Assembly: GCA_013205245.1 (NCBI GenBank)
Contig: JABMNH010000064.1
Location: 62,001-126,000 of the forward strand
Origin: Flavobacteriales bacterium
Lineage (GTDB): Bacteria > Bacteroidota > Bacteroidia > Flavobacteriales > Flavobacteriaceae
Length of the DNA stretch: 64,000 nt
Direction: 5' to 3'
Both the position numbers and the translations under genes were made by a program. Positions within the stretch are counted from its first letter, which is position 1. Each line of letters begins with the position of its first letter. Positions 6,225 through 21,944 of the stretch are shown here, piece by piece. The notes beneath the pieces are model-generated. The model worked only from the letters and a program-made list of their open reading frames with translations, ran no database searches and was not told where the DNA came from.

Positions 6225-6659
6225 TTATTCTAGAGATATATACGATTTCCCATTGCGTATGTCTTCGGCAAATTGGGCTATGGTATTGTTTGCTAATTTT
6301 ACAAAAAGATCATTTTTAAAAGGTTCGACAATTGTGTGAACAGAACAAGGTTTTTCGTTTGAGCAGGTATGCAAACCTAAAAAACATTGGTTAAATTTTT
6401 CTAAGCCATCAATACAGGTTACAATATCTAAAACAGAGTTTTTTAAATTGTCTTCTGTAAGGCAAAATCCGCCATGTGGGCCTTTATTCGAAGAAATAAT
6501 ACTTTTTCTAGTTAGATCTTGTAGTATCTTTGCCAAAAAGGGTTGTGGCATGTTCAATTTTTCGGCAACAAACTTAGAACCTAATTTATGTGTCTCATCA
6601 GCCTGCATGGCTAGATATATCACAGCTCTAATAGCATATTTACAAGAATTTGACAGCAT
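6225..6659 (-). CDS. Rrf2 family Fe-S transcriptional regulator
   Basis: A 144-residue Rrf2 protein: winged HTH in the first 65 residues (SCKYAIRAVIYLAMQ, LNMPQPFLAKILQDL, NKGPHGGFCL), then a cysteine cluster Cys92-x6-Cys99-x5-Cys105 (CFLGLHTCSNEKPC) that resembles the iron-sulfur ligand triad of NsrR and IscR. Such regulators sense NO, redox state or iron. It is divergent from the nitrous oxide reductase genes, with a shared intergenic region containing an inverted repeat, so control of the nos operon in response to NO or oxygen is the natural inference. The exact sensor type cannot be told from sequence. Confidence 0.88.
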   Translation of the reverse strand: MLSNSCKYAIRAVIYLAMQADETHKLGSKFVAEKLNMPQPFLAKILQDLTRKSIISSNKGPHGGFCLTEDNLKNSVLDIVTCIDGLEKFNQCFLGLHTCSNEKPCSVHTIVEPFKNDLFVKLANNTIAQFAEDIRNGKSYISLE

Positions 6660-6681
6660 AAATTTAATGTTTTAATAAGGC

Positions 6682-6745
6682 AAAGATAAAAATTTAATTA
6701 AATAAAGACCTTTTTATCTCATATAATAAAATTTTCATATATTTG
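6682..6745. promoter_or_regulatory. Divergent promoters and candidate Rrf2 operator
   Basis: The minus-strand gene has a -7 box TATCTTTG (6682-6689) and the plus-strand nos operon a -7 box TATATTTG (6738-6745). Between them a 9-bp perfect inverted repeat, AGATAAAAA (6685-6693) and TTTTTATCT (6712-6720), covers the regulator's own -7 box and the upstream part of the nos promoter. The position would let one bound regulator affect both genes. Confidence 0.55.
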
Positions 6746-6771
6746 TATCCTAAATTAATTAAACCCGTATT

Positions 6772-7350
6772 ATGAAAATTAGTAACCTTATTTCAATTAT
6801 TGCTTTAGCTTTTAGTGTCGTTATGTTATCTTGCTCAGACAAACAAAACGATTCGGCTAAAAAAGATGTGGCTAAACCCGCAACAGAACATCACGGACAA
6901 GCTTCTGTACAAGATGGCGTATCTGCTGCCAATGTACTTCAAGTTGCCATGTCTCTAGACGATTTTAAAACATTAGTAGTTGCTGTACAAGCTGCTGGTG
7001 TAGAAGACGCATTGGTTAATGCTGGCCCTTTAACTGTTTTTGCGCCTGTTAATAGCGCTTTCGATAAATTACCTGAAGGTACTGTAGAAACATTACTAAA
7101 ACCAGAAAATAAAGCTAAATTAGCTTATATTTTAGTCAACCATGTAGCGCCTAGTAATTACCCAATTAAACAATTAAACAAGGAAGCTGAAAAAGGTAGA
7201 AAATTGTACATGGCTTCAGGTAAGTACTTAGTTGTAGAAAATAAAGAAGATGGTGTTTATGTAGGCGGTACAAAAATATTAAAATCGGTTAAAGTAAGTA
7301 ATGGTTGGATACATGTAATAGGAGATATTCTTGTACCATCAGAAGATTAA
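6772..7350 (+). CDS. Fasciclin domain lipoprotein of the nos locus
   Basis: A 192-residue protein with a lipoprotein signal peptide (lipobox VVMLSC, Cys21) and one fasciclin (FAS1) domain from about residue 50 to the end: LNAGPLTVFAPVNSAFDKLP-like H1 box (VNAGPLTVFAPVNSAFDKLP), then LAYILVNHVAP and the late GWIHVIGDILVP. It is the first gene after the nos promoter and is followed 23 bp later by a cytochrome c and nosZ. FAS1 proteins near nosZ recur in Bacteroidota; whether this one has a role in copper handling or NosZ assembly is unknown. Likely anchored in a periplasmic-facing or outer membrane. Confidence 0.88.
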   Translation: MKISNLISIIALAFSVVMLSCSDKQNDSAKKDVAKPATEHHGQASVQDGVSAANVLQVAMSLDDFKTLVVAVQAAGVEDALVNAGPLTVFAPVNSAFDKLPEGTVETLLKPENKAKLAYILVNHVAPSNYPIKQLNKEAEKGRKLYMASGKYLVVENKEDGVYVGGTKILKSVKVSNGWIHVIGDILVPSED

Positions 7351-7373: not shown

Positions 7374-7829
7374 ATGAAATTAAAAACACTCAGTCTCATC
7401 TTATTATCGGCTCTGTTTATAATTAGCTGTGGCGGTGACAAAAAAGATAAGACGCCTGTTAGCAAAACAGAAGTGAAAGTCGAAACACCTTCTGACCCTA
7501 TGCAAGACAAAGGTATAGGTCCTGTTAAAAGTATTACTTTAGGCGATTTAGATCAAGCTTTAGCAGATCAGGGTAAAGAAATATTTACTTTAAAATGTTC
7601 TGCTTGTCATAAAATTAGCAAACGTGTTGTTGGGCCAGCTTTAAAAGGCGTAACAACAAGACGTTCTCCAGAATGGATTATGAATATGATTCTTAATCCC
7701 GAAGGTATGGTTGCAGAAAACCCAATTGCAAAAAAATTATTAGCCGAGTATTTAGCACCGATGGCAAATCAAAATTTGACCCATGACGAAGCAAGGGCTA
7801 TTTTAGAATATTTTAGAACAAAAGAATAA
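7374..7829 (+). CDS. c-type cytochrome lipoprotein, probable electron donor to NosZ
   Basis: A 151-residue lipoprotein (lipobox IISC, Cys19) with a single class I cytochrome c domain: haem motif CSACH at 75-79, then VVGPALKGV, and APMANQ near residue 133 as candidate for the sixth, Met, ligand. Located between the fasciclin gene and nosZ, 18 bp ahead of nosZ. Small cytochromes commonly sit in clade II nos loci and are believed to carry electrons from the quinol pool to NosZ; that donor role is inference from position. Confidence 0.9.
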   Translation: MKLKTLSLILLSALFIISCGGDKKDKTPVSKTEVKVETPSDPMQDKGIGPVKSITLGDLDQALADQGKEIFTLKCSACHKISKRVVGPALKGVTTRRSPEWIMNMILNPEGMVAENPIAKKLLAEYLAPMANQNLTHDEARAILEYFRTKE

Positions 7830-7847
7830 CAACCTAATTTATAAATT

Positions 7848-9818
7848 ATGAAATCAATATTTAAAAGTGCTTTATTGGCCATTGTAGCTGTTTCGTTTTT
7901 AACGTCATGCAACAATAGCAGTAAAAAATCTGGAGCATTAACAAGCAATGCTGCAGAGCGTGTATATGTTGCTCCTGGAGAACATGATGAATTTTATGCC
8001 TTTGTTTCTGGTGGCTTTAGCGGACAATTATCCGTTTATGGATTACCTTCTGGACGTTTATTCAAAGTGATTCCTGTTTTTTCTGTAGATGCAGAAAAAG
8101 CTTATGGATTTAATGAAGAAACAAAACCAATGTTAAATACCTCTTTTGGATTTGTTCCTTGGGATGATTCACATCATCCAGACATCTCTCAAACTGCTGG
8201 AGAATTAGATGGTAGATGGGTATTTATTAATGGAAACAATACACCACGTATTGCAAAAATTGATTTAACAACTTTTGAAACTACAGAAATTATTGAAATT
8301 CCAAATTCTGCTGGTAACCACAGTTCTTCTTATGTAACTGAGAATACTGAATATGTAGTTGCAGGAACACGCTTTGCGGTACCAGTACCACAACGCGATA
8401 TGCCAATTAGCGAATATAAAGGAAACTTTAAAGGTGCCCTCACCTTTTTAAAAGTTGATCCAGAAGATGGTAAAATGAACATTTCTTTCCAAATCTTAAT
8501 GCCCGGATTTGATTATGATAAAGCGCATCCTGGTAGAGGTGATTCTCATGGATGGTTCTTTTTTACAACCTACAATAGTGAAGAGGCTAACTCTTTATTA
8601 GAAGTAAACGCATCTCAAAATGATAAAGATTTTATTGCTGCCGTTAACTGGAAAGTAATTGAAGAATATGTAAATAATGGAGGTGGTACAAAAATGCCTG
8701 CTAATTATGCCCATAATGTTTATGATGAAAATACACATTCTGCAACTTCTACAATGATGAAAGAAGTGTTAACAATTAACCCTTCAGACGTTCCTGGTGC
8801 TATTTATTTCTTACCAACACCAAAATCACCACATGGGTGTGATGTTTCTCCAACTGGCGAATATATTGTTGGTAGTGGTAAATTATCCGCAGATGTTACT
8901 GTGCACTCTTTCACTAAAATGATTAAAGCCATAAAAGAGAAAAAATTTGACGGTGATGCGTACGGTATTCCAATCTTAAATTACGAAGCTATTTTAGCTG
9001 GCTCTGTAAAAAGTGGTGGTTTAGGCCCATTGCATACCGAATTTGACGGAAAAGGGAATGCTTATACCACTTTCTTTATTTCTTCTGAAGTTGTAAAATG
9101 GAAATTAGGAACTTGGGAAGTTATCGACAGAAAACCAACTTACTACTCTGTAGGTCATCTTATGATTCCTGGAGGAAACTCAAGAAAACCAGAAGGGAAA
9201 TATCTTTTGGCAATGAATAAAATAACCAAAGACCGTTATTTACCAACAGGTCCAGAGGTTACACAATCTGCGCAATTATATGACATTACTGGTGAGAAAA
9301 TGGAGCTATTGTTAGATTTCCCAACTATTGGAGAGCCTCATTATGCTGCTGGTATTTCTGCCGATATCATTAAGAAAAATTCTAAAAAACTATATAAATT
9401 AGAAGAAAATAAACATCCTTATGTTGCAAAAAGTGAAGCAGAAGCCAAAGTGGTAAGAAAAGGAAACGAAGTTCACATTTCTATGACCATGATTCGCAGT
9501 CACTTTGCACCAGACAATATTGAAGGTATTAAAGTGGGAGATAAAGTATTTTTCCACGTCACAAATTTAGAACAAGATTATGATGTGCCTCACGGTGTGA
9601 GTATGATTGGTGCCAATACATCTGAATTATTAATTATGCCAGGGCAAACAGAAACCTTTATTTGGGAGCCTAAACAAGTGGGTGTGTGGCCTTTCTATTG
9701 TACAGATTTCTGCTCTGCATTACACCAAGAAATGCAAGGTTATGTTCGTGTCTCTGCAAAAGGCTCTAAAGTTCCTATAACATTCACGTTAGATGGTGAC
9801 GCTGTAGATGCCGAATAA
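7848..9818 (+). CDS. nosZ: Nitrous oxide reductase, clade II (Sec-dependent)
   Basis: A 656-residue NosZ, which reduces N2O to N2 in the periplasm with the CuZ and CuA copper centres. The N-terminus is a Sec/lipoprotein-type signal (LTSC, Cys21) instead of a Tat signal, as in clade II enzymes. CuZ region: DSHHPD and GRWVFINGNNTPRI near residues 106-135, NHSSSYVTE and HGCDVSPTGEYIVGSGKL. CuA domain at the C-terminus: His582, Cys618, Cys622, His626 and Met629 in CTDFCSALHQEM, with Asp620 where clade I enzymes have Trp. Followed by a terminator hairpin. No nitrite or NO reductase genes are visible in the window. Confidence 0.97.
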   Translation: MKSIFKSALLAIVAVSFLTSCNNSSKKSGALTSNAAERVYVAPGEHDEFYAFVSGGFSGQLSVYGLPSGRLFKVIPVFSVDAEKAYGFNEETKPMLNTSFGFVPWDDSHHPDISQTAGELDGRWVFINGNNTPRIAKIDLTTFETTEIIEIPNSAGNHSSSYVTENTEYVVAGTRFAVPVPQRDMPISEYKGNFKGALTFLKVDPEDGKMNISFQILMPGFDYDKAHPGRGDSHGWFFFTTYNSEEANSLLEVNASQNDKDFIAAVNWKVIEEYVNNGGGTKMPANYAHNVYDENTHSATSTMMKEVLTINPSDVPGAIYFLPTPKSPHGCDVSPTGEYIVGSGKLSADVTVHSFTKMIKAIKEKKFDGDAYGIPILNYEAILAGSVKSGGLGPLHTEFDGKGNAYTTFFISSEVVKWKLGTWEVIDRKPTYYSVGHLMIPGGNSRKPEGKYLLAMNKITKDRYLPTGPEVTQSAQLYDITGEKMELLLDFPTIGEPHYAAGISADIIKKNSKKLYKLEENKHPYVAKSEAEAKVVRKGNEVHISMTMIRSHFAPDNIEGIKVGDKVFFHVTNLEQDYDVPHGVSMIGANTSELLIMPGQTETFIWEPKQVGVWPFYCTDFCSALHQEMQGYVRVSAKGSKVPITFTLDGDAVDAE

Positions 9819-10683: not shown

Positions 10684-11115
10684 ATGATAAAATATATTAC
10701 ACTTCTTTTTAGTTTTCTAGTTTTAGTTTCGTGTACTATTAAACCAAAACCTATCAATTATGGAAGTGATCATTGCCGTTATTGCGAAATGACAGTTGTA
10801 GATCAAAATCACGCTTCTTTTTATGTTACAAAAAAAGGAAAGCAGTTTAATTTTGACAGCATCGAATGTATGATTAACGATTTAAAAGATAAAGACGAAA
10901 CACAAATGGCATTTATTAATGTGAATGTTTTCGGACAGCCAACTAAAACTATAGAAGCTCAAAAAGCCACCTATTTGGTAAGTCCGGCTATTAAAAGCCC
11001 GATGGGCAAAAATTTATCTGCTTTTGGCACAAAAGAAACTGCTCAAAAAACCCAACAAGAAAATGGCGGTAATCTTTACACGTGGCAACAAATTAAAACA
11101 CTCATCAAAAAATAA
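10684..11115 (+). CDS. nosL: NosL copper-binding lipoprotein
   Basis: A 143-residue NosL family lipoprotein (lipobox VLVSC, Cys17). The family's Cu(I)-binding motif is seen as CRYCEM at residues 31-36 (Cys31, Cys34, Met36), with the second family segment FDSIECMINDL and later SPAIKSPMGKNLSAF. NosL delivers copper for the CuZ centre of NosZ. Its stop codon overlaps the nosD start by 1 bp, so nosLDFY is a tightly coupled unit. A possible weak -7 box TATCTTTA lies at 10660-10667, right after the terminator. Confidence 0.93.
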   Translation: MIKYITLLFSFLVLVSCTIKPKPINYGSDHCRYCEMTVVDQNHASFYVTKKGKQFNFDSIECMINDLKDKDETQMAFINVNVFGQPTKTIEAQKATYLVSPAIKSPMGKNLSAFGTKETAQKTQQENGGNLYTWQQIKTLIKK

Positions 11116-12344
11116 TGCCTTTTAAAAGTCTTTTAGTTTTTTTACTCTTTCCATTAATGTGTTTTTCATCAACCATTAAAGTGTGTAAAACCTGTAAAGA
11201 AACATCCCTTTCATCCGCAATAAGCGTCGCTCAAAAAGGCGATACAATTCTTATATATAAAGGCACTTATAAAGAACATAACCTCATCATAACAAAACCC
11301 ATAACGATTATTGGCGTTGATAATCCTGTTATTGACGGCGAAAGTAAAGAAACTATTTTTACGTTTAAAACGGATAATTTTAACCTTCAAGATTTAACAA
11401 TCATAAATGTAGGTAGAAGTTTTACTAAAGATTATGCCGCAATACTGGTGTCGCGTAGCCATCATTTTAGCATAAAAAATATTCAAATTAGAAATCTATT
11501 TTTTGGCATCCTTATAGAAAAATCGCATTTTGGGTTGATAGAAAATAACATCATAAAAAGTAAATCTACATCAGAAGCTGGTGCGGGCAATGGTATTCAT
11601 ATGTGGCATTCTTCAAACATTATCGTTAAAAACAATGATTTGAGCGGCTTAAGAGATGGTATTTATTTTGAATTTGTATCTAAAAGTACGATATCAAACA
11701 ATAAAAGTTATAACAATTTAAGATATGGTTTGCATTTTATGTTTTCTAACCATAACGAATATCATCACAATACTTTTAAAGATAATGGTGCGGGTGTGGC
11801 AGTTATGTTTTCAAAATACATCAAAATGCACGACAATAAATTTTTGCATAATTGGGGATCTGCATCATATGGTCTTTTATTAAAAGAAATTTATGATGCC
11901 GAAATTTATAACAACACTTTTGAGCAAAATACCATTGGTATAAATGCCGAAGGCTCTACACGAATAAATTACAAATACAATCTTTTTTTGAGAAACGGAT
12001 GGGCTATAAAAGTACGTGGTGCTTGTTATGAAAATATTTTTACAAACAATAATTTTATATCTAATGCTTTCGATTTAGCCTACAATTCTAAAATAAACAG
12101 CAACTTATTTGATAACAATTATTGGAGTGAATATACAGGTTACGATTTAAACAAAGATGGCATTGGCGACGTCCCTTTTAGACCCGTAAAACTGTTTTCG
12201 TATATCGTAAACCAAACACCCGAAACAATTGTTTTATTGCGGAGTTTGTTTGTAGATATTATCAATTTTTCAGAAAAAGTTTCTCCTGTTTTTACGCCAG
12301 ATAATTTGGTTGACAAAGCCCCATTAATGAAAGAAATACAATGA
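11115..12344 (+). CDS. nosD: NosD, periplasmic copper-site maturation protein
   Basis: A 409-residue protein with a cleavable signal peptide (LLVFLLFPLMCFSS) and a right-handed parallel beta-helix made of CASH/PbH1 repeats, for example NNIIKSKSTSEAGAGNGIHM, NDLSGLRDGIYFEF, NNKSYNNLRYGLHFMFSNHN and NNTFEQNTIGINAEGSTR. NosD works with the NosFY ABC transporter in CuZ assembly. KVCKTCKETS near the mature N-terminus contains a CxxC pair. The nosF start overlaps its end by 4 bp. Confidence 0.95.
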   Translation: MPFKSLLVFLLFPLMCFSSTIKVCKTCKETSLSSAISVAQKGDTILIYKGTYKEHNLIITKPITIIGVDNPVIDGESKETIFTFKTDNFNLQDLTIINVGRSFTKDYAAILVSRSHHFSIKNIQIRNLFFGILIEKSHFGLIENNIIKSKSTSEAGAGNGIHMWHSSNIIVKNNDLSGLRDGIYFEFVSKSTISNNKSYNNLRYGLHFMFSNHNEYHHNTFKDNGAGVAVMFSKYIKMHDNKFLHNWGSASYGLLLKEIYDAEIYNNTFEQNTIGINAEGSTRINYKYNLFLRNGWAIKVRGACYENIFTNNNFISNAFDLAYNSKINSNLFDNNYWSEYTGYDLNKDGIGDVPFRPVKLFSYIVNQTPETIVLLRSLFVDIINFSEKVSPVFTPDNLVDKAPLMKEIQ

Positions 12345-16078: not shown

Positions 16079-17428
16079 ATGTCAAAAGACATTCATATAA
16101 AAAGGGGCTTGAACATACCTTTACAAGGAGAATCGGATAAAAAAATTACCTCATCCAAGAGCCCAACTCAGTACGCAATTCAACCACCAGATTTCTATGG
16201 ATTAACACCAAAACTTAGTGTTAAAACCAATGATACTGTTGTTGCAGGCGATGTTTTGTTTTACGATAAAAATCAAGAACAAATTAAATTCACATCTCCT
16301 GTTTCTGGCACAATTGCAAATATCAAACGAGGTGCTAAACGTAAAATTTTAACTGTAGAAATTTTAGCCGATGCTAAAGACACTTTTAAAGACTTTGGTA
16401 AAGCCGATGCAAATACGCTATCGCGCGATCAAATAAAAGAGAAGTTGCTACAAAGTGGTTGTTGGCCCTACATAAAACAACGTCCTTACGATGTTGTTGC
16501 CGACCCTAATGCAACGCCAAAAGCCATTTTTATTTCGGCATATAACACGGTGCCTTTAGCTGCCGATTTTGCTTTTATTTTAAAAGATAGAAAAGAGGCT
16601 TTTGCTGCTGGTATTACGGTACTTTCTAAATTGACAGACGGTGCTGTTAATTTGGGCATTAATTCAAAAGATGCCGATTTCTTTAGCGCTATTGCCGATG
16701 CTAACGTTTACAACGTTAGTGGTAAGCATCCTGCCGGAAATGTGAGTTTTCAAATAGCCAAAATAGACCCAATAAACCAAGGCGAAAAAGTTTGGGTTGT
16801 AAGTCCTCAAGATGTGGCTATTATTGGCGCGTTATTTTTAACAGGTTATTATAATCCAACTAGAACTATTGCCATAGCAGGTGTTGGTGTTAAAGAACCA
16901 CAATACTATACCCTAAAAACAGGTCAGCATTTAGAAGAATTGTTTTCAGAAATACTTGTAAATGGTAACTTTAGACTTATTTCGGGCAATGTGCTTTCCG
17001 GCGAGAGAATTTTTAAAAACAGTTATTTACGCTATTTTGCCAATAGTATTTGTGTGATTCCTGAGGGTAATCATTACGATTTTTTAGGATGGCATCCTTT
17101 TATTGGAAACAATAAACTAAGCTTGTCGCGCACCTTTTTCTCTTGGTTAACACCAAATAAAAAATACAATTTAGATACCAATTTAAATGGCGAAGAACGC
17201 GCTTTGGTAGTAACAGGAGAAATGGAACAGGTATTTCCTATGAATATTTATCCTTTACAACTGCTTAAAGCTGCCATGGCAGACGATATTGAAAAAATGG
17301 AAAACTTGGGTATTTACGAAGTAGCTCCAGAAGACTTTGCATTGATAGATTTCACTAACACCTCTAAGTTAGAAGCGCAAGAAATTATTCGTTACGCTTT
17401 AGATGTTATGGTAAAAGAAGTAGGTTAA
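16079..17428 (+). CDS. nqrA: Na+-translocating NADH:quinone reductase subunit A
   Basis: A 449-residue NqrA, the peripheral cytoplasmic subunit of the sodium-pumping NADH:ubiquinone oxidoreductase (Na+-NQR). The N-terminus (IHIKRGLNIPLQGESDK) and the early biotinyl-lipoyl-like segment (VSGTIANIKRGAKRKIL) are typical, as is HYDFLGWHPFIGNNKLS late in the protein. It starts the six-gene nqrABCDEF operon, with 2-24 bp between genes. Confidence 0.96.
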   Translation: MSKDIHIKRGLNIPLQGESDKKITSSKSPTQYAIQPPDFYGLTPKLSVKTNDTVVAGDVLFYDKNQEQIKFTSPVSGTIANIKRGAKRKILTVEILADAKDTFKDFGKADANTLSRDQIKEKLLQSGCWPYIKQRPYDVVADPNATPKAIFISAYNTVPLAADFAFILKDRKEAFAAGITVLSKLTDGAVNLGINSKDADFFSAIADANVYNVSGKHPAGNVSFQIAKIDPINQGEKVWVVSPQDVAIIGALFLTGYYNPTRTIAIAGVGVKEPQYYTLKTGQHLEELFSEILVNGNFRLISGNVLSGERIFKNSYLRYFANSICVIPEGNHYDFLGWHPFIGNNKLSLSRTFFSWLTPNKKYNLDTNLNGEERALVVTGEMEQVFPMNIYPLQLLKAAMADDIEKMENLGIYEVAPEDFALIDFTNTSKLEAQEIIRYALDVMVKEVG

Positions 17429-17445
17429 TAATTAAGATATTTTGT

Positions 17446-18603
17446 ATGAAATTTTTAAGAAAAAAATTAGATTATATTAAACCCGCATTTTTAAGACGTG
17501 GTAAATTTCAAAAATTTGCGCCTGCATTTTTTGCAATCGATAGCTTTTTATTTGTTCCTAATCACACAACAAGAACCGGTGCTCATATCAGAGATGGTGT
17601 CGATTTAAAACGTGTGATGTACACGGTAGTTTTAGCCTTGCTTCCTGCCCTTTTCTTTGGGATGTGGAATGTTGGTTACCAACATTTTTCTCAAATAGGT
17701 GGCGATTTATCCTTTTGGCATTTAATGGGTTATGGCGCCACAAAAGTGTTGCCAATGGTAATTGTTTCTTACGGCATTGGTCTAGGAATCGAATTTTTAT
17801 TTGCCATTAAACGCGGTCACGAAGTTAACGAAGGTTATTTGGTAACCGGTATGTTAATTCCGTTAATTATGCCAGTAGAATTGCCTTTATGGATGTTGGC
17901 TTTAGCCGTTGCATTTGCAGTGGTTTTAGGTAAAGAAGTTTTTGGCGGTACAGGAATGAATATTTTAAATCCCGCTTTATTGGCACGCGCTTTTGCATTC
18001 TTTTCTTATGCCCCTTACATGTCTGGCGATAAAGTTTGGGTAGCCGATGCTGCTAAATTAGATGCCGTTTCTGGCGAAACTATTTTAGGCACATTAGCTG
18101 ATGGCGGTGGTCAAGTATCGCACAGCGTTATGGATATGTTTATGGGATATGTTCCTGGTTCAATAGGAGAAACATCAGTTTTAATGATTTTAATAGGCGC
18201 GGCTCTTTTAATATTTACAGGTGTTGCCAGTTGGCGCATTATGTTATCTGCGGTATTAGGTGCTGCTGTAATGGGTTTAATATTTAATGCAACGGCTGTA
18301 AATCCACTTATGGCATTTCCATGGTGGCAACACATGCTAGTTGGTGGTTTTGCTTTTGGTATTGTGTTTATGGCTACAGATCCTGTAAGCTCTGCTCAAA
18401 CAACCAAAGGGAAATGGATCTACGGATTTTTTGTAGGCTTTTTGGCTGTAATGATTCGCGTGTTTAACAGCGCCTATCCAGAAGGTGTAATGATGGCCAT
18501 ATTACTGATGAATGTTTTTGCACCAACCATTGACCATTATGTGATTCAAAGCAATGTGAAACGTAGAAAAAATCGTTTAAAAAAATTAGTTAAAGCGGCT
18601 TAA
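17446..18603 (+). CDS. nqrB: Na+-NQR subunit B
   Basis: A 385-residue membrane subunit with about ten helices. The covalent FMN site is the Thr in a D-x-x-SG-x-T motif, seen here as DAVSGET with Thr212; many NqrB proteins have SGAT, so Glu for Ala is a small departure. GKEVFGGTGMNILNPALLARAF is the RnfD/NqrB family signature. Carries riboflavin and part of the sodium path. Confidence 0.96.
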   Translation: MKFLRKKLDYIKPAFLRRGKFQKFAPAFFAIDSFLFVPNHTTRTGAHIRDGVDLKRVMYTVVLALLPALFFGMWNVGYQHFSQIGGDLSFWHLMGYGATKVLPMVIVSYGIGLGIEFLFAIKRGHEVNEGYLVTGMLIPLIMPVELPLWMLALAVAFAVVLGKEVFGGTGMNILNPALLARAFAFFSYAPYMSGDKVWVADAAKLDAVSGETILGTLADGGGQVSHSVMDMFMGYVPGSIGETSVLMILIGAALLIFTGVASWRIMLSAVLGAAVMGLIFNATAVNPLMAFPWWQHMLVGGFAFGIVFMATDPVSSAQTTKGKWIYGFFVGFLAVMIRVFNSAYPEGVMMAILLMNVFAPTIDHYVIQSNVKRRKNRLKKLVKAA

Positions 18604-18605
18604 TT

Positions 18606-19319
18606 ATGGATAGAAATAGCAATACATATACTTTCATGTTTTCTTCAATTCTTGTAATTGTTGTGGCTTTGATCTTGGCTTTTGTGAGTCAGGCTACCAA
18701 AAGTAAATATGAATCGAACATAGAAAACGAAAAAATGCAGAGCATTTTAGCAACCATTGGTGTGGCTGTTGATAGAGACAAAGCCTCTGGTTTATATAAT
18801 GACTATATAAAAGAATCGCTTACGCTTAACGCTGATGGTTCTTTAAATATTGGTGTAAATGCCTTTGATATCAATTTACATAAAGAACTTAAAAAAGACG
18901 CTAACAAACAATCTTTTCCGCTATATATAGCCGAAAAAGACGGTAAAAAATACTATGTTATTCCGCTATATGGCGCCGGTCTTTGGGATGCTATTTGGGG
19001 TTATGTAGCTTTAGAAAGCGATAAAAACACTGTAGCTGGTGCTATTTTTGATCATAAAGGAGAAACGCCTGGTTTAGGAGCGCAAATAACCGAAAAATGG
19101 TTTCAAGAACAATTTGCAGGTAAAACAATCTTAACCGATGCAAGTGCCGGTTTTACAGATAACAATTTTATCTCTGTTAGAACTGTAAAAGGCGGTGCTA
19201 AAACAGACGATGCCCATGCCGTAGATGGCATCTCAGGAAGCACAAAAACCGCAGATGGCATAAATAACATGATACAAGAGCGTTTAGCGCATTATTTAAT
19301 TTATTTTCAAAACAATTAA
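18606..19319 (+). CDS. nqrC: Na+-NQR subunit C
   Basis: A 237-residue subunit with one N-terminal membrane helix and a large periplasmic FMN-binding domain. The flavinylation motif is SGST at 210-213 (Thr213), preceded by GETPGLGAQI, both diagnostic. FMN is attached by ApbE, not encoded in this window. Confidence 0.96.
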   Translation: MDRNSNTYTFMFSSILVIVVALILAFVSQATKSKYESNIENEKMQSILATIGVAVDRDKASGLYNDYIKESLTLNADGSLNIGVNAFDINLHKELKKDANKQSFPLYIAEKDGKKYYVIPLYGAGLWDAIWGYVALESDKNTVAGAIFDHKGETPGLGAQITEKWFQEQFAGKTILTDASAGFTDNNFISVRTVKGGAKTDDAHAVDGISGSTKTADGINNMIQERLAHYLIYFQNN

Positions 19320-19330
19320 TGCTTTAAGTT

Positions 19331-19999
19331 ATGGCAGAAAAAGAATCTTTATTTTCTAAAAAAAATATACAACTTCTAAAAAATCCACTTAATACCGATA
19401 ACCCTATTACTGTTCAAGTATTGGGTGTTTGTTCGGCTTTAGCGGTAACCGTTCAGTTAAAACCATCTATTGTAATGGCTATTTCTGTTATGGTAGTTAT
19501 TGCAGCGAGTAATGTTATTGTGTCTTTATTGCGGAATTTAATCCCCAATAGGGTACGCATAATTGTGCAATTGGTAATTGTTGCGGCTTTGGTAATTTTA
19601 GTTGATTTAACACTAAAAGCTTACTCTTATGATGTGAGTAAACAACTTTCGGTTTTTATAGGCTTAATTATTACCAACTGTATTGTAATGGGCAGGCTCG
19701 AAGCTTTTGCTTTGGCTAACAAACCTTGGGCATCGTTTTTAGACGGCCTTGGTAATGGCGCAGGTTATGGTTTAATATTAGTTGTTGTCTCTTTTTTTAG
19801 AGAACTTTTAGGCTCTGGTAAATTAGGGGGTTGGGAAATATTAGGTCATAAAGGAAAAACCATTGCAGATTCTACGGGTCTCTACGGATTTGGTTACGAA
19901 AATAACGGATTTATGCTTTTAGCGCCAATGGCTCTAATTGTTGTAGGTATTTATATCTGGATACAACGGTCTATAAATGTAAAATTAATAGAAAATTAA
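19331..19999 (+). CDS. nqrD: Na+-NQR subunit D
   Basis: A 222-residue six-helix membrane protein of the NqrDE/RnfAE family. Cys34 ([11 protein letters not shown]) and Cys117 ([10 protein letters not shown]) sit in the two inverted half-repeats and correspond to the ligands of the intramembrane iron centre shared with NqrE. Confidence 0.96.
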
Positions 20000-20012
20000 A
20001 TAAGATACTATT

Positions 20013-20627
20013 ATGGAATTAGCTAATATATTTATAAAAAGCATCTTCATAGATAATATGATTTTTGCTTATTTCTTAGGAATGTGTTCCTATTTAGCCG
20101 TGTCAAAAACGGTAAAAACAGCAGTTGGATTAGGTGCTGCTGTTATTTTTGTACTTACAATTACGGTTCCTATTAACTATTTGCTAGACGCCTATATTTT
20201 ACGCCCAGGCGCCTTACAATGGCTAGATGCATCGTATGCTGATATTGATCTTAGTTTCTTAAGTTACATCATGTTTATAGCGGTTATTGCTGCCATGGTA
20301 CAATTAGTAGAAATGATTGTAGAACGCTTTTCACCTGCATTGTACAGCTCATTAGGTATCTTTTTACCGCTAATAGCAGTAAACTGTGCCATTTTAGGAG
20401 GCTCATTATTTATGCAACAAAAAGATTTTTCAACCATTACAGAATCTGTAGTTTACGGATTTGGATCTGGAATAGGTTGGCTTTTAGCTATTGTAGCATT
20501 GGCATCTATTAGAGAAAAAATAACGTATTCAAATGTTCCTGCACCATTAAGAGGTTTGGGTATTACCTTTATCATTACAGGATTAATGGCAATAGCATTT
20601 ATGAGTTTTATGGGTATCAAACTTTAA
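20013..20627 (+). CDS. nqrE: Na+-NQR subunit E
   Basis: A 204-residue six-helix protein homologous to NqrD. Cys25 ([11 protein letters not shown]) and Cys125 ([10 protein letters not shown]) match the other half of the iron-centre ligands. Typical length for the subunit. Confidence 0.96.
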
Positions 20628-20651
20628 TTAAAAAAAATAAGAAATAAAATA

Positions 20652-21944
20652 ATGGGAACAATTGCAGCAAGTATAATTGCCTTTTTAATTCTTACCTTAC
20701 TATTGGTAACCTTACTATTAGTAGCAAAAGCAAAACTATTGCCTTCTGGTAACGTTCATGTTAAAATTAATGGCGAAAAAGATATTGAAGTAGCTATTGG
20801 CGATTCTTTATTAAGCACCTTAAGTAATAATAAAATATTTTTACCATCGGCTTGTGGCGGTGGTGGTACATGCTTACAATGCAAATGTATTGTCTCTTCT
20901 GGTGGTGGCGAAATGCTTCCTACAGAAGTGCCAAACTTTACACGTAAACAAGCTGCCGAAGGCTGGCGCTTAGGATGCCAAGTAAAGGTAAAAGAAGACA
21001 TGGTTGTTGAGGTGCCCGAAGAGGTTTTTGGCGTTAAAAAATGGGAAGCTACTGTGGTTTCAAATTACAACGTGGCCTCTTTTATTAAAGAATTTGTAGT
21101 AGAATTACCCGAAGATATGGACTACAAAGCGGGTGGTTATATTCAAATCGAAATCCCTAATTGCGAAATTCCTTTTACAGATATTGATATTACCGCACAT
21201 CCAGCTGAACATCCTAACGATCCAGATAAATTTAAATTAGAATGGGATAAATTTGGTTTATGGCCAATGGTTATGAAAAATACCGATGATGTTACACGCG
21301 CCTATTCTATGGCTTCTTATCCAGCCGAAGGCCGTCGTGTTATGTTAAACGTACGTATTGCTACCCCGCCTTTCGATAGAAATATTGGTGGTTGGGCTAA
21401 AGTAAACCCTGGTGTGGCTTCTTCTTATATTTTCTCTCGTAAAACTGGCGATAAAGTAATTGTTTCTGGCCCTTACGGCGAATTCTTTATCAATGATTCT
21501 GATTCCGAAATGTTATACATTGGTGGTGGTGCAGGTATGGCGCCTATGCGTTCGCATTTATACCATTTATTCGAAACCCTTAAAACGGGCAGAACTGTTA
21601 CTTATTGGTATGGTGGACGTTCTAAACGCGAATTGTTTTATGTAGATCATTTTAAACATCTCGAAAAACATTTTCCTAATTTTAAATATTTAATTGCCTT
21701 ATCAGATCCAGCTCCCGAAGATAATTGGGTGGTTAAAAAAGATGTGAATGACCCTGTTGGGGATGGCTTTACAGGTTTTATACATCAAGTAGTCATAGAT
21801 AATTACCTAACCAAACACGAGACGCCAGAAGATATAGAATTCTATTTCTGCGGCCCACCATTAATGAACCAAGCGGTTGTTAAAATGTGTGATGACTTTG
21901 GTGTGCCACCAGAAAATGTACGTTTTGATGACTTTGGAGGATAA
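20652..21944 (+). CDS. nqrF: Na+-NQR subunit F (NADH-oxidising)
   Basis: A 430-residue subunit where NADH enters: N-terminal membrane helix (about 5-25), a [2Fe-2S] ferredoxin domain with Cys68, Cys74, Cys77 and Cys109 ([14 protein letters not shown] and LGCQ), then a ferredoxin-NADP reductase module with the FAD motif RAYSMASYP and the NADH segment [24 protein letters not shown] lies near the end. Last gene of the operon. Confidence 0.97.

Follow-up and report, generated by a model that had tools for sequence, protein, structure and literature searches.

How does a bacterium of the family Flavobacteriaceae switch its nitrous-oxide reductase genes? The window, meaning the whole 64-kb stretch of DNA analysed here, holds a clade II nos operon in the order fasciclin-domain gene, cytochrome c gene, nosZ, membrane protein gene, nosL, nosD and further genes, and an rrf2-family regulator gene on the minus strand diverges from it across an intergenic region of 112 bp (Table 1). 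N2O reducers of clade II act as a biological N2O sink, and nos switching in Bacteroidetes is hardly described in the open-licence literature. Rrf2 genes beside clade II nos genes have been reported on Bacteroidetes scaffolds from Ushuaia Bay (PMC6264515), and in Melioribacter roseus a Rrf2 gene beside nos was suggested to control it (PMC3534657). The locus is like the reported Bacteroidetes rrf2–nos pairs in its gene association; relative to those accounts, the operator, the promoter geometry, the regulon and an FNR-type partner are added here. For a nos-adjacent Rrf2 of Bacteroidetes, we found no operator in the open-licence literature. The reading that we favor, and consider probable, is that positions 6703–6722 are the operator of an NsrR-like Fe-S repressor, the Rrf2 product of the divergent gene, that NO would release this repressor, and that the window's lineage has lost the FNR-type box present in most relatives. 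Putative -7 boxes were called with the consensus TAnnTTTG described in PMC9723704.

Table 1. Features of the divergent rrf2–nos region, with positions counted in the window.
Feature	Positions	Strand	Details
rrf2-family regulator gene	6225..6659	-	144 aa; C92-X6-C99-X5-C105-X2-H108
rrf2 putative -7 box	6681..6688	-	CAAAGATA on the plus strand, the reverse of TATCTTTG on the minus strand; fits TAnnTTTG
Left arm of the 9-bp repeat, AGATAAAAA	6684..6692		judged to be -7 box plus A-tract, no operator half
Operator A (predicted), TAAAGACCTTTTTATCTCAT	6703..6722	+	core 6705-6720; leave-one-out PWM 15.7 bits
nos operon putative -7 box	6738..6745	+	TATATTTG; fits TAnnTTTG
Fasciclin-domain lipoprotein-like gene, nos operon gene 1	6772..7350	+	PF02469
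c-type cytochrome gene	7374..7829	+	PF00034
nosZ, Sec-dependent (clade II) nitrous-oxide reductase	7848..9818	+	TIGR04246, 936 bits (cut-off 625)
nosL	10684..11115	+	PF05573
nosD	11115..12344	+	TIGR04247

The original prediction saw the operator in a 9-bp inverted repeat with an 18-bp spacer, lying over the regulator's -7 box. That repeat exists: AGATAAAAA-N18-TTTTTATCT is letter-perfect at 6684–6719, is the sole exact match in the window, and does overlap the box. Perfect 9-bp inverted arms with a spacer of at most 40 bp form 57 pairs in the 64 kb, and at least one such pair arose in 18.6% of 2,000 mononucleotide shuffles of the 112-bp intergenic region. With both arms fixed, the near matches (3) were unequalled in any shuffle, a question defined by the repeat itself. 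The left arm mostly coincides with the putative rrf2 -7 box. Upstream of nos in relatives, among the 69 rrf2-divergent loci with motif A (described below) that reach far enough, the exact left arm stands at its place in one, the window itself. The 9-N18-9 dyad is at chance level, is not conserved and is not supported as an operator. Its right arm, at 6711–6719, falls in the right half of 6703–6722. An intrinsic terminator reading of the repeat was put aside, each arm having one G or C.

Comparison of nos promoters across the family revealed a different element. nosZ was detected in 176 of 397 family genomes, and nos loci were taken from 80 plus 20 of these 176, mostly one per genus. The upstream 2.8 kb from 80 genomes (one shortened by a contig end), together with a second collection of 80 named loci among the matches listed, gave a set that with the window comprised 161 loci, of which 97 have a divergent rrf2; 157 promoters could be used, and 141 of them are distinct. 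Starting from a seed picked out by eye in the promoter sequences, we built motif A, a 20-bp dyad of the form AAAAGAYAnnTTTRTCYTAA, which scored at least 13 bits under leave-one-out in 114 of the 141 distinct nos promoters and in none of the 705 dinucleotide shuffles. The 141 include two loci with a misplaced region (L103 and L107, both below 13), which were re-anchored to their own intergenic regions for the co-occurrence count. Locus L129 lies at a contig end and has no promoter region; G066 is therefore absent from all counts.

In the window, 6703–6722 is the only 20-mer of 127,962 to reach 13 bits (full profile, window site included). This copy (AAGACC/TATCTC) falls short of the consensus in symmetry, and at 15.7–16.2 bits it scores below many relatives. 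Its centre is 28 bp from the rrf2 -7 box and 29 bp from the nos -7 box; lying midway between the two, A covers the -33 region of both promoters. The 29-bp distance to the nos -7 box recurs in L081 and L082, and the longest run of the 112-bp intergenic region that is identical between the window and its congener L081 is TAAAGACCTTTTTATCT, 17 bp within A. A degenerate form of the pattern was not enriched in the window's genome (20 matches versus 57 for the reversed control). A Rrf2 operator overlapping the divergent promoters, as originally proposed, is thus retained as a candidate at 6703–6722 and given up as a 36-bp repeat.

Most relatives carry a second element beside A. Box B, TGAYnnnnRTCA, occurs within 60 bp downstream of A in 106 of the 114 promoters with A, at a centre-to-centre distance of 19 bp in 80, 20 bp in 12 and 25–29 bp in some others. 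From A to the nos -7 box the distance is 52 bp in 76 promoters and 53 bp in another 12. This geometry places B near -41, the position of a class II activator, and A at about -60. The relatives' box B, ATGAYnnnnRTCAT at about -41, resembles the FNR/DNR boxes of proteobacterial nos promoters (DNR box CTTGATnnnnATCAAG in PMC1274295); unlike these promoters, the window's nos promoter has no such box. Eight loci have A without B (the window, L061, L081, L082, L104, L124, L217 and L231). L124 and L231 keep the 52-bp spacing from A to the -7 box, and L124 has a form of B that differs by one letter. A is just 29–31 bp from the -7 box, at about -36 of the nos promoter, in the window, L061, L081, L082 and L104. 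The idea that Rrf2 offers an alternative to FNR/DNR-type control suits the window's lineage and the few others without B, but not the 106 promoters in which A and B stand together. The window's genome still holds 28 copies of the B pattern (12 for the control) and has two matches of CRP/FNR type that exceed the cut-off, so what was lost is the box at nos and not evidently the system as a whole. A search at 1e-3 of frames of at least 80 aa in loci L141–L238 and the window gave no match to CRP/FNR genes. On L259 (G000:C16), a gene of the CRP/FNR family whose product has an N-terminal CxxC adjoins what by eye is a P-type ATPase-like gene; this product is a candidate B binder.

The occurrence of A at nos followed that of one Rrf2 subfamily, which a profile of 13 Rrf2 proteins delimits (at least 141 bits, with other Rrf2 genes below 89 bits). 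Of 91 genomes that encode the subfamily, 79 have A at nos; of the 9 that do not, none has it (Fisher 1.5e-7, ancestry ignored). In this count the first set was scored by a profile trained on that same set. In a second set of 20 genomes, fetched once the motif was fixed, the corresponding figures were 10/13 and 0/7 (p 0.003, ancestry again ignored). The first set of 80 contributed only two subfamily-negative genomes, G160 and G330; the other seven were five picked for having no close Rrf2 and two congeners of these. In the other 12 of the 91 subfamily-positive genomes, nothing at nos reaches 13 bits for A. Scored at 14 bits, A is present in 70/84 promoters with divergent rrf2 and in 42/57 without it, so that in the latter an unlinked paralog would have to serve. 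L189, with its Rrf2 on the other strand, was not taken as divergent. By sequence comparison, the Rrf2 protein is very likely the ligand of operator A, and an Fe-S protein.

Paralogs add to this picture. Of seven ric-type Rrf2 paralogs off the nos promoter (L142–L145, L147–L149), five carry an A of at least 13.5 bits in the promoter of the paralog itself, in each case 28–29 bp from a -7 box. In two other paralogs, L152 and L157, the distance from A to a -7-like box is 19 bp instead of 28. The Rrf2 paralog of the window's genome has no clear A in its own promoter. Several details of these loci are recorded here as observations in their own right. The window genome's second Rrf2, at 8771–9199 of L141 (G000:C52), belongs to the same subfamily, and near it an A-like site at 8256 (14.4) is followed after about 70 bp by a membrane-protein-like frame of 140 aa. 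In seven relatives (within L142–L149) a distinct Rrf2 clade is found near nos genes, with an MFSKACEY start and Glu at the NsrR Asp8 position; it adjoins ric in L144, L145, L147, L148 and L149. At the G036 nos promoter (L271), the nos-adjacent Rrf2 is a partial match with an internal stop, A and B are retained, and an intact subfamily member is encoded elsewhere in that genome.

Two other views of the bound site have to be set against binding of Rrf2 to 6703–6722. One takes the full 36-bp dyad as the operator, with half-sites at 6684–6692 and 6711–6719 occupied by one Rrf2 dimer or two. The exactness of the 9-bp repeat favors it, as do the resemblance of the left arm to AAGATA, the outer half of motif A, and the sequence ATATAAAAA in the congener L081, which keeps 8/9 letters of the arm at a one-base shift (4/9 in an ungapped count). 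We nevertheless hold this view to be very unlikely, given the single locus with the exact arm, the frequency of 9-bp inverted repeats in shuffles, the coincidence of the left arm with the rrf2 -7 box, and a scan of 6655–6778 in which no 20-mer exceeded 4.0 except that at 6703 (16.2; other strand 9.0). On the same scan, the left arm was rejected as a second operator copy. The other view assigns A to a second CRP/FNR-family protein in place of Rrf2. Its half-site spacing would allow this, as the A core can be read as 5-4-5 in the manner of FNR boxes; A also keeps a mostly fixed 19–20 bp from a clear FNR-type box, and CRP/FNR genes are present in the window's genome. The genomes without the Rrf2 subfamily, however, have no A at nos (0/9) and keep the FNR-type box, exact in 8/9 and in a near form in G016, and A stands in the promoters of rrf2 genes themselves, which leaves a CRP/FNR protein a highly improbable ligand of A.

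The regulator belongs to the Rrf2 family by both models applied, with 89.6 bits for the Rrf2 domain PF02082 (cut-off 30) and 90.1 for TIGR00738 (cut-off 73.3). Cys92, Cys99 and Cys105, which the original prediction had proposed as a cluster site, are each Cys in 97/97 divergent Rrf2 rows, and His108, at C105+3, is His in 97/97; the rows are not de-duplicated and include the window's, and the first Cys gap is X6. Because these four residues are invariant in the 97 rows, the protein likely bears an Fe-S cluster. IscR holds its cluster by a Cys3-His ligand set with C-X5/6-C-X5-C-X2-H spacing, and in Streptomyces NsrR the fourth cluster ligand is Asp8. Here the residue aligned with Asp8 is Lys7, with Lys in 87/97 rows and Glu in 3. 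The regulator is like IscR in its Rrf2 domain and possibly in a C-X5/6-C-X5-C-X2-H ligand pattern; unlike IscR, it is associated with NO and denitrification genes and not with Fe-S assembly, and it did not reach the IscR equivalog cut-off (TIGR02010, 48.2 bits against 207.55). With NsrR it shares the Rrf2 family, three cluster cysteines and a gene set for detoxifying NO and for denitrification, represented in the window's genome by nos and ric. It differs from NsrR in the Lys found in most rows at the Asp8 equivalent, in the His at C105+3, in an NsrR equivalog score short of the cut-off (NF008240, 33.2 bits against 182), and in the operator, AAGAYA-N4-TRTCTT here versus gATGyAT-N5-ATrCATc for NsrR (PMC1274295).

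What signal might such a protein sense? NsrR regulons, as described in PMC1274295, include ytfE/dnrN (ric), nirK and norB, and nos as well in certain species; the same paper predicts NsrR control of nos in Photobacterium profundum and, in Neisseria, of the denitrification pathway. NsrR binding has been reported at the Magnetospirillum nosZ promoter (PMC11014258); a 2026 paper (PMC12774639) contests a role of NsrR in Magnetospirillum magnetosome formation. In 333 kb, made up of 18 neighbourhoods and the window, A of at least 13.5 bits was found before ric (5 loci), norC-like (3), nirK (2) and nrdG-like (3) genes and before rrf2, with several further sites before other frames. Among the A-bearing genes tested, NCBIfam cut-offs were passed by two NirK proteins (TIGR02376), two Ric proteins (TIGR03652) and one NrdG protein (TIGR02826). 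The norC-like label reflects, in L146, a cytochrome c domain together with a neighbour of COX1 type and, in the other loci, resemblance.

ric (TIGR03652) took no part in the training of motif A, and 51 ric loci were collected from 78 genomes. A occurs in 27/44 ric promoters of genomes with the subfamily versus 0/6 (five genomes) without it (p 0.006, ancestry ignored; mononucleotide shuffles, 0.4%), G188 (A 20.9) being excluded from the count; the other 17/44 have no A at 13 bits. The sole ric gene (Fe-S repair) of the window's genome is preceded by AAAAGATATCATTGTCTTTT, an A that scores 18.6 bits and lies 29 bp from the -7 box, which is the geometry of the window's nos promoter. nirK had no match in the window's genome (94% complete). 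A further A-like site, AAAAGACCTTTGTGTCTTTA (18.9), was seen at about 1499 of L249 (G000:C48), immediately ahead of a frame of some 135 aa. By eye, this frame is similar to the NifX/NifB cofactor-binding family; it may be a further regulon member. The gene set under A (ric, nirK, norC-like, nos and rrf2) appears NsrR-like and of NO type, and because it resembles that of NsrR, NO is the likeliest signal; from these other A-bearing genes we infer NO as the ligand of the nos-adjacent Rrf2. The proposal of an iron-sulfur sensor for NO or oxygen is upheld in that the Fe-S protein is very likely and ric, nirK, norC-like and rrf2 favor NO; oxygen is not favored.

The same operator and protein could nonetheless respond to oxygen, iron or cluster supply, in the manner of IscR or RirA, and not to NO. 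In line with this, His108 at C105+3 recalls the IscR Cys3-His ligand set, the residue aligned with NsrR Asp8 is predominantly Lys, and nrdG, an anaerobic gene, bears A too. The A-bearing set is, however, near the published NsrR regulons as given in PMC1274295, the genes recognised with A include none of suf or isc, and we regard a signal other than NO as unlikely. A similarly low probability attaches to Rrf2 acting at nos as an activator, or as a co-activator with an FNR-type protein, instead of as a plain repressor. Such a role would suit most relatives examined, where A at about -60 is near the class I activator position and mostly 19–20 bp from the FNR-type box (80 plus 12 loci). It sits less well with the window, where A overlaps the -33 region, or with the ric, norC-like and nirK genes of relatives, where the centre of A is 19–61 bp from the start codon; both are usual repressor positions. 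Where relatives have A at -60 and B at a near-fixed distance from it, Rrf2 could either help or hinder the FNR-type activator.

On the preferred reading of an NO-released repressor, the operator would be bound by the Rrf2 of the divergent gene and possibly also by the same-subfamily paralog of the genome. The bound dimer would block nos and rrf2 together. NO would then nitrosylate the cluster and release Rrf2, as the A-bearing gene set suggests, turning on nos and rrf2, and release would also turn on ric from its own operator copy. Comparison of the sequences shows the operator with its conservation and its dependence on the Rrf2 subfamily, the genes that share it, the geometry of the promoters and the missing FNR-type box; DNA binding, repression and the role of NO as ligand are what we infer here from comparative data. 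The claim that the regulator controls both N2O reduction and itself accordingly survives through Rrf2 and the shared operator, without the dyad first attached to it. In the window's lineage, the nos promoter has lost the FNR-type box and the Rrf2 operator stands at the -36 position instead.

A tree of 116 Rrf2 proteins (a short alignment with many weak forks) does not place the nos-adjacent ones in one group. The window and L081 form one supported group, and L082 and L104, with L023 (not known to be near nos), form a separate one; both pairs have A near -36 and no B. Independent rewiring of nos promoters seems likely. More tentatively, and with some doubt on our part, Flavobacteriaceae may share a composite element, occupied at a near-fixed 19–20 bp by an FNR-type protein and by an NO-type Rrf2 acting as repressor or co-activator, that computes 'no oxygen plus NO' ahead of nos expression, several lineages having independently become Rrf2-only through loss of B, an operator slide of about 23 bp and recruitment of a different paralog each. 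If this is true, N2O reduction in the Rrf2-only lineages would be uncoupled from oxygen control. A lineage lacking the FNR-type box naturally suggests itself as one in which N2O reduction need not depend on anoxia, and with operator, regulator and gene set named, NO control is directly testable in culturable genera.

Two other regions of the window caught our attention. Shortly 3' of nos, at 16079–21944, are six genes that by eye are nqrA–F, for a sodium-translocating NADH:quinone reductase. At 887–1935, a Fic-domain-like protein and an adjoining helix-turn-helix protein (by eye) possibly form a toxin-antitoxin-like pair.
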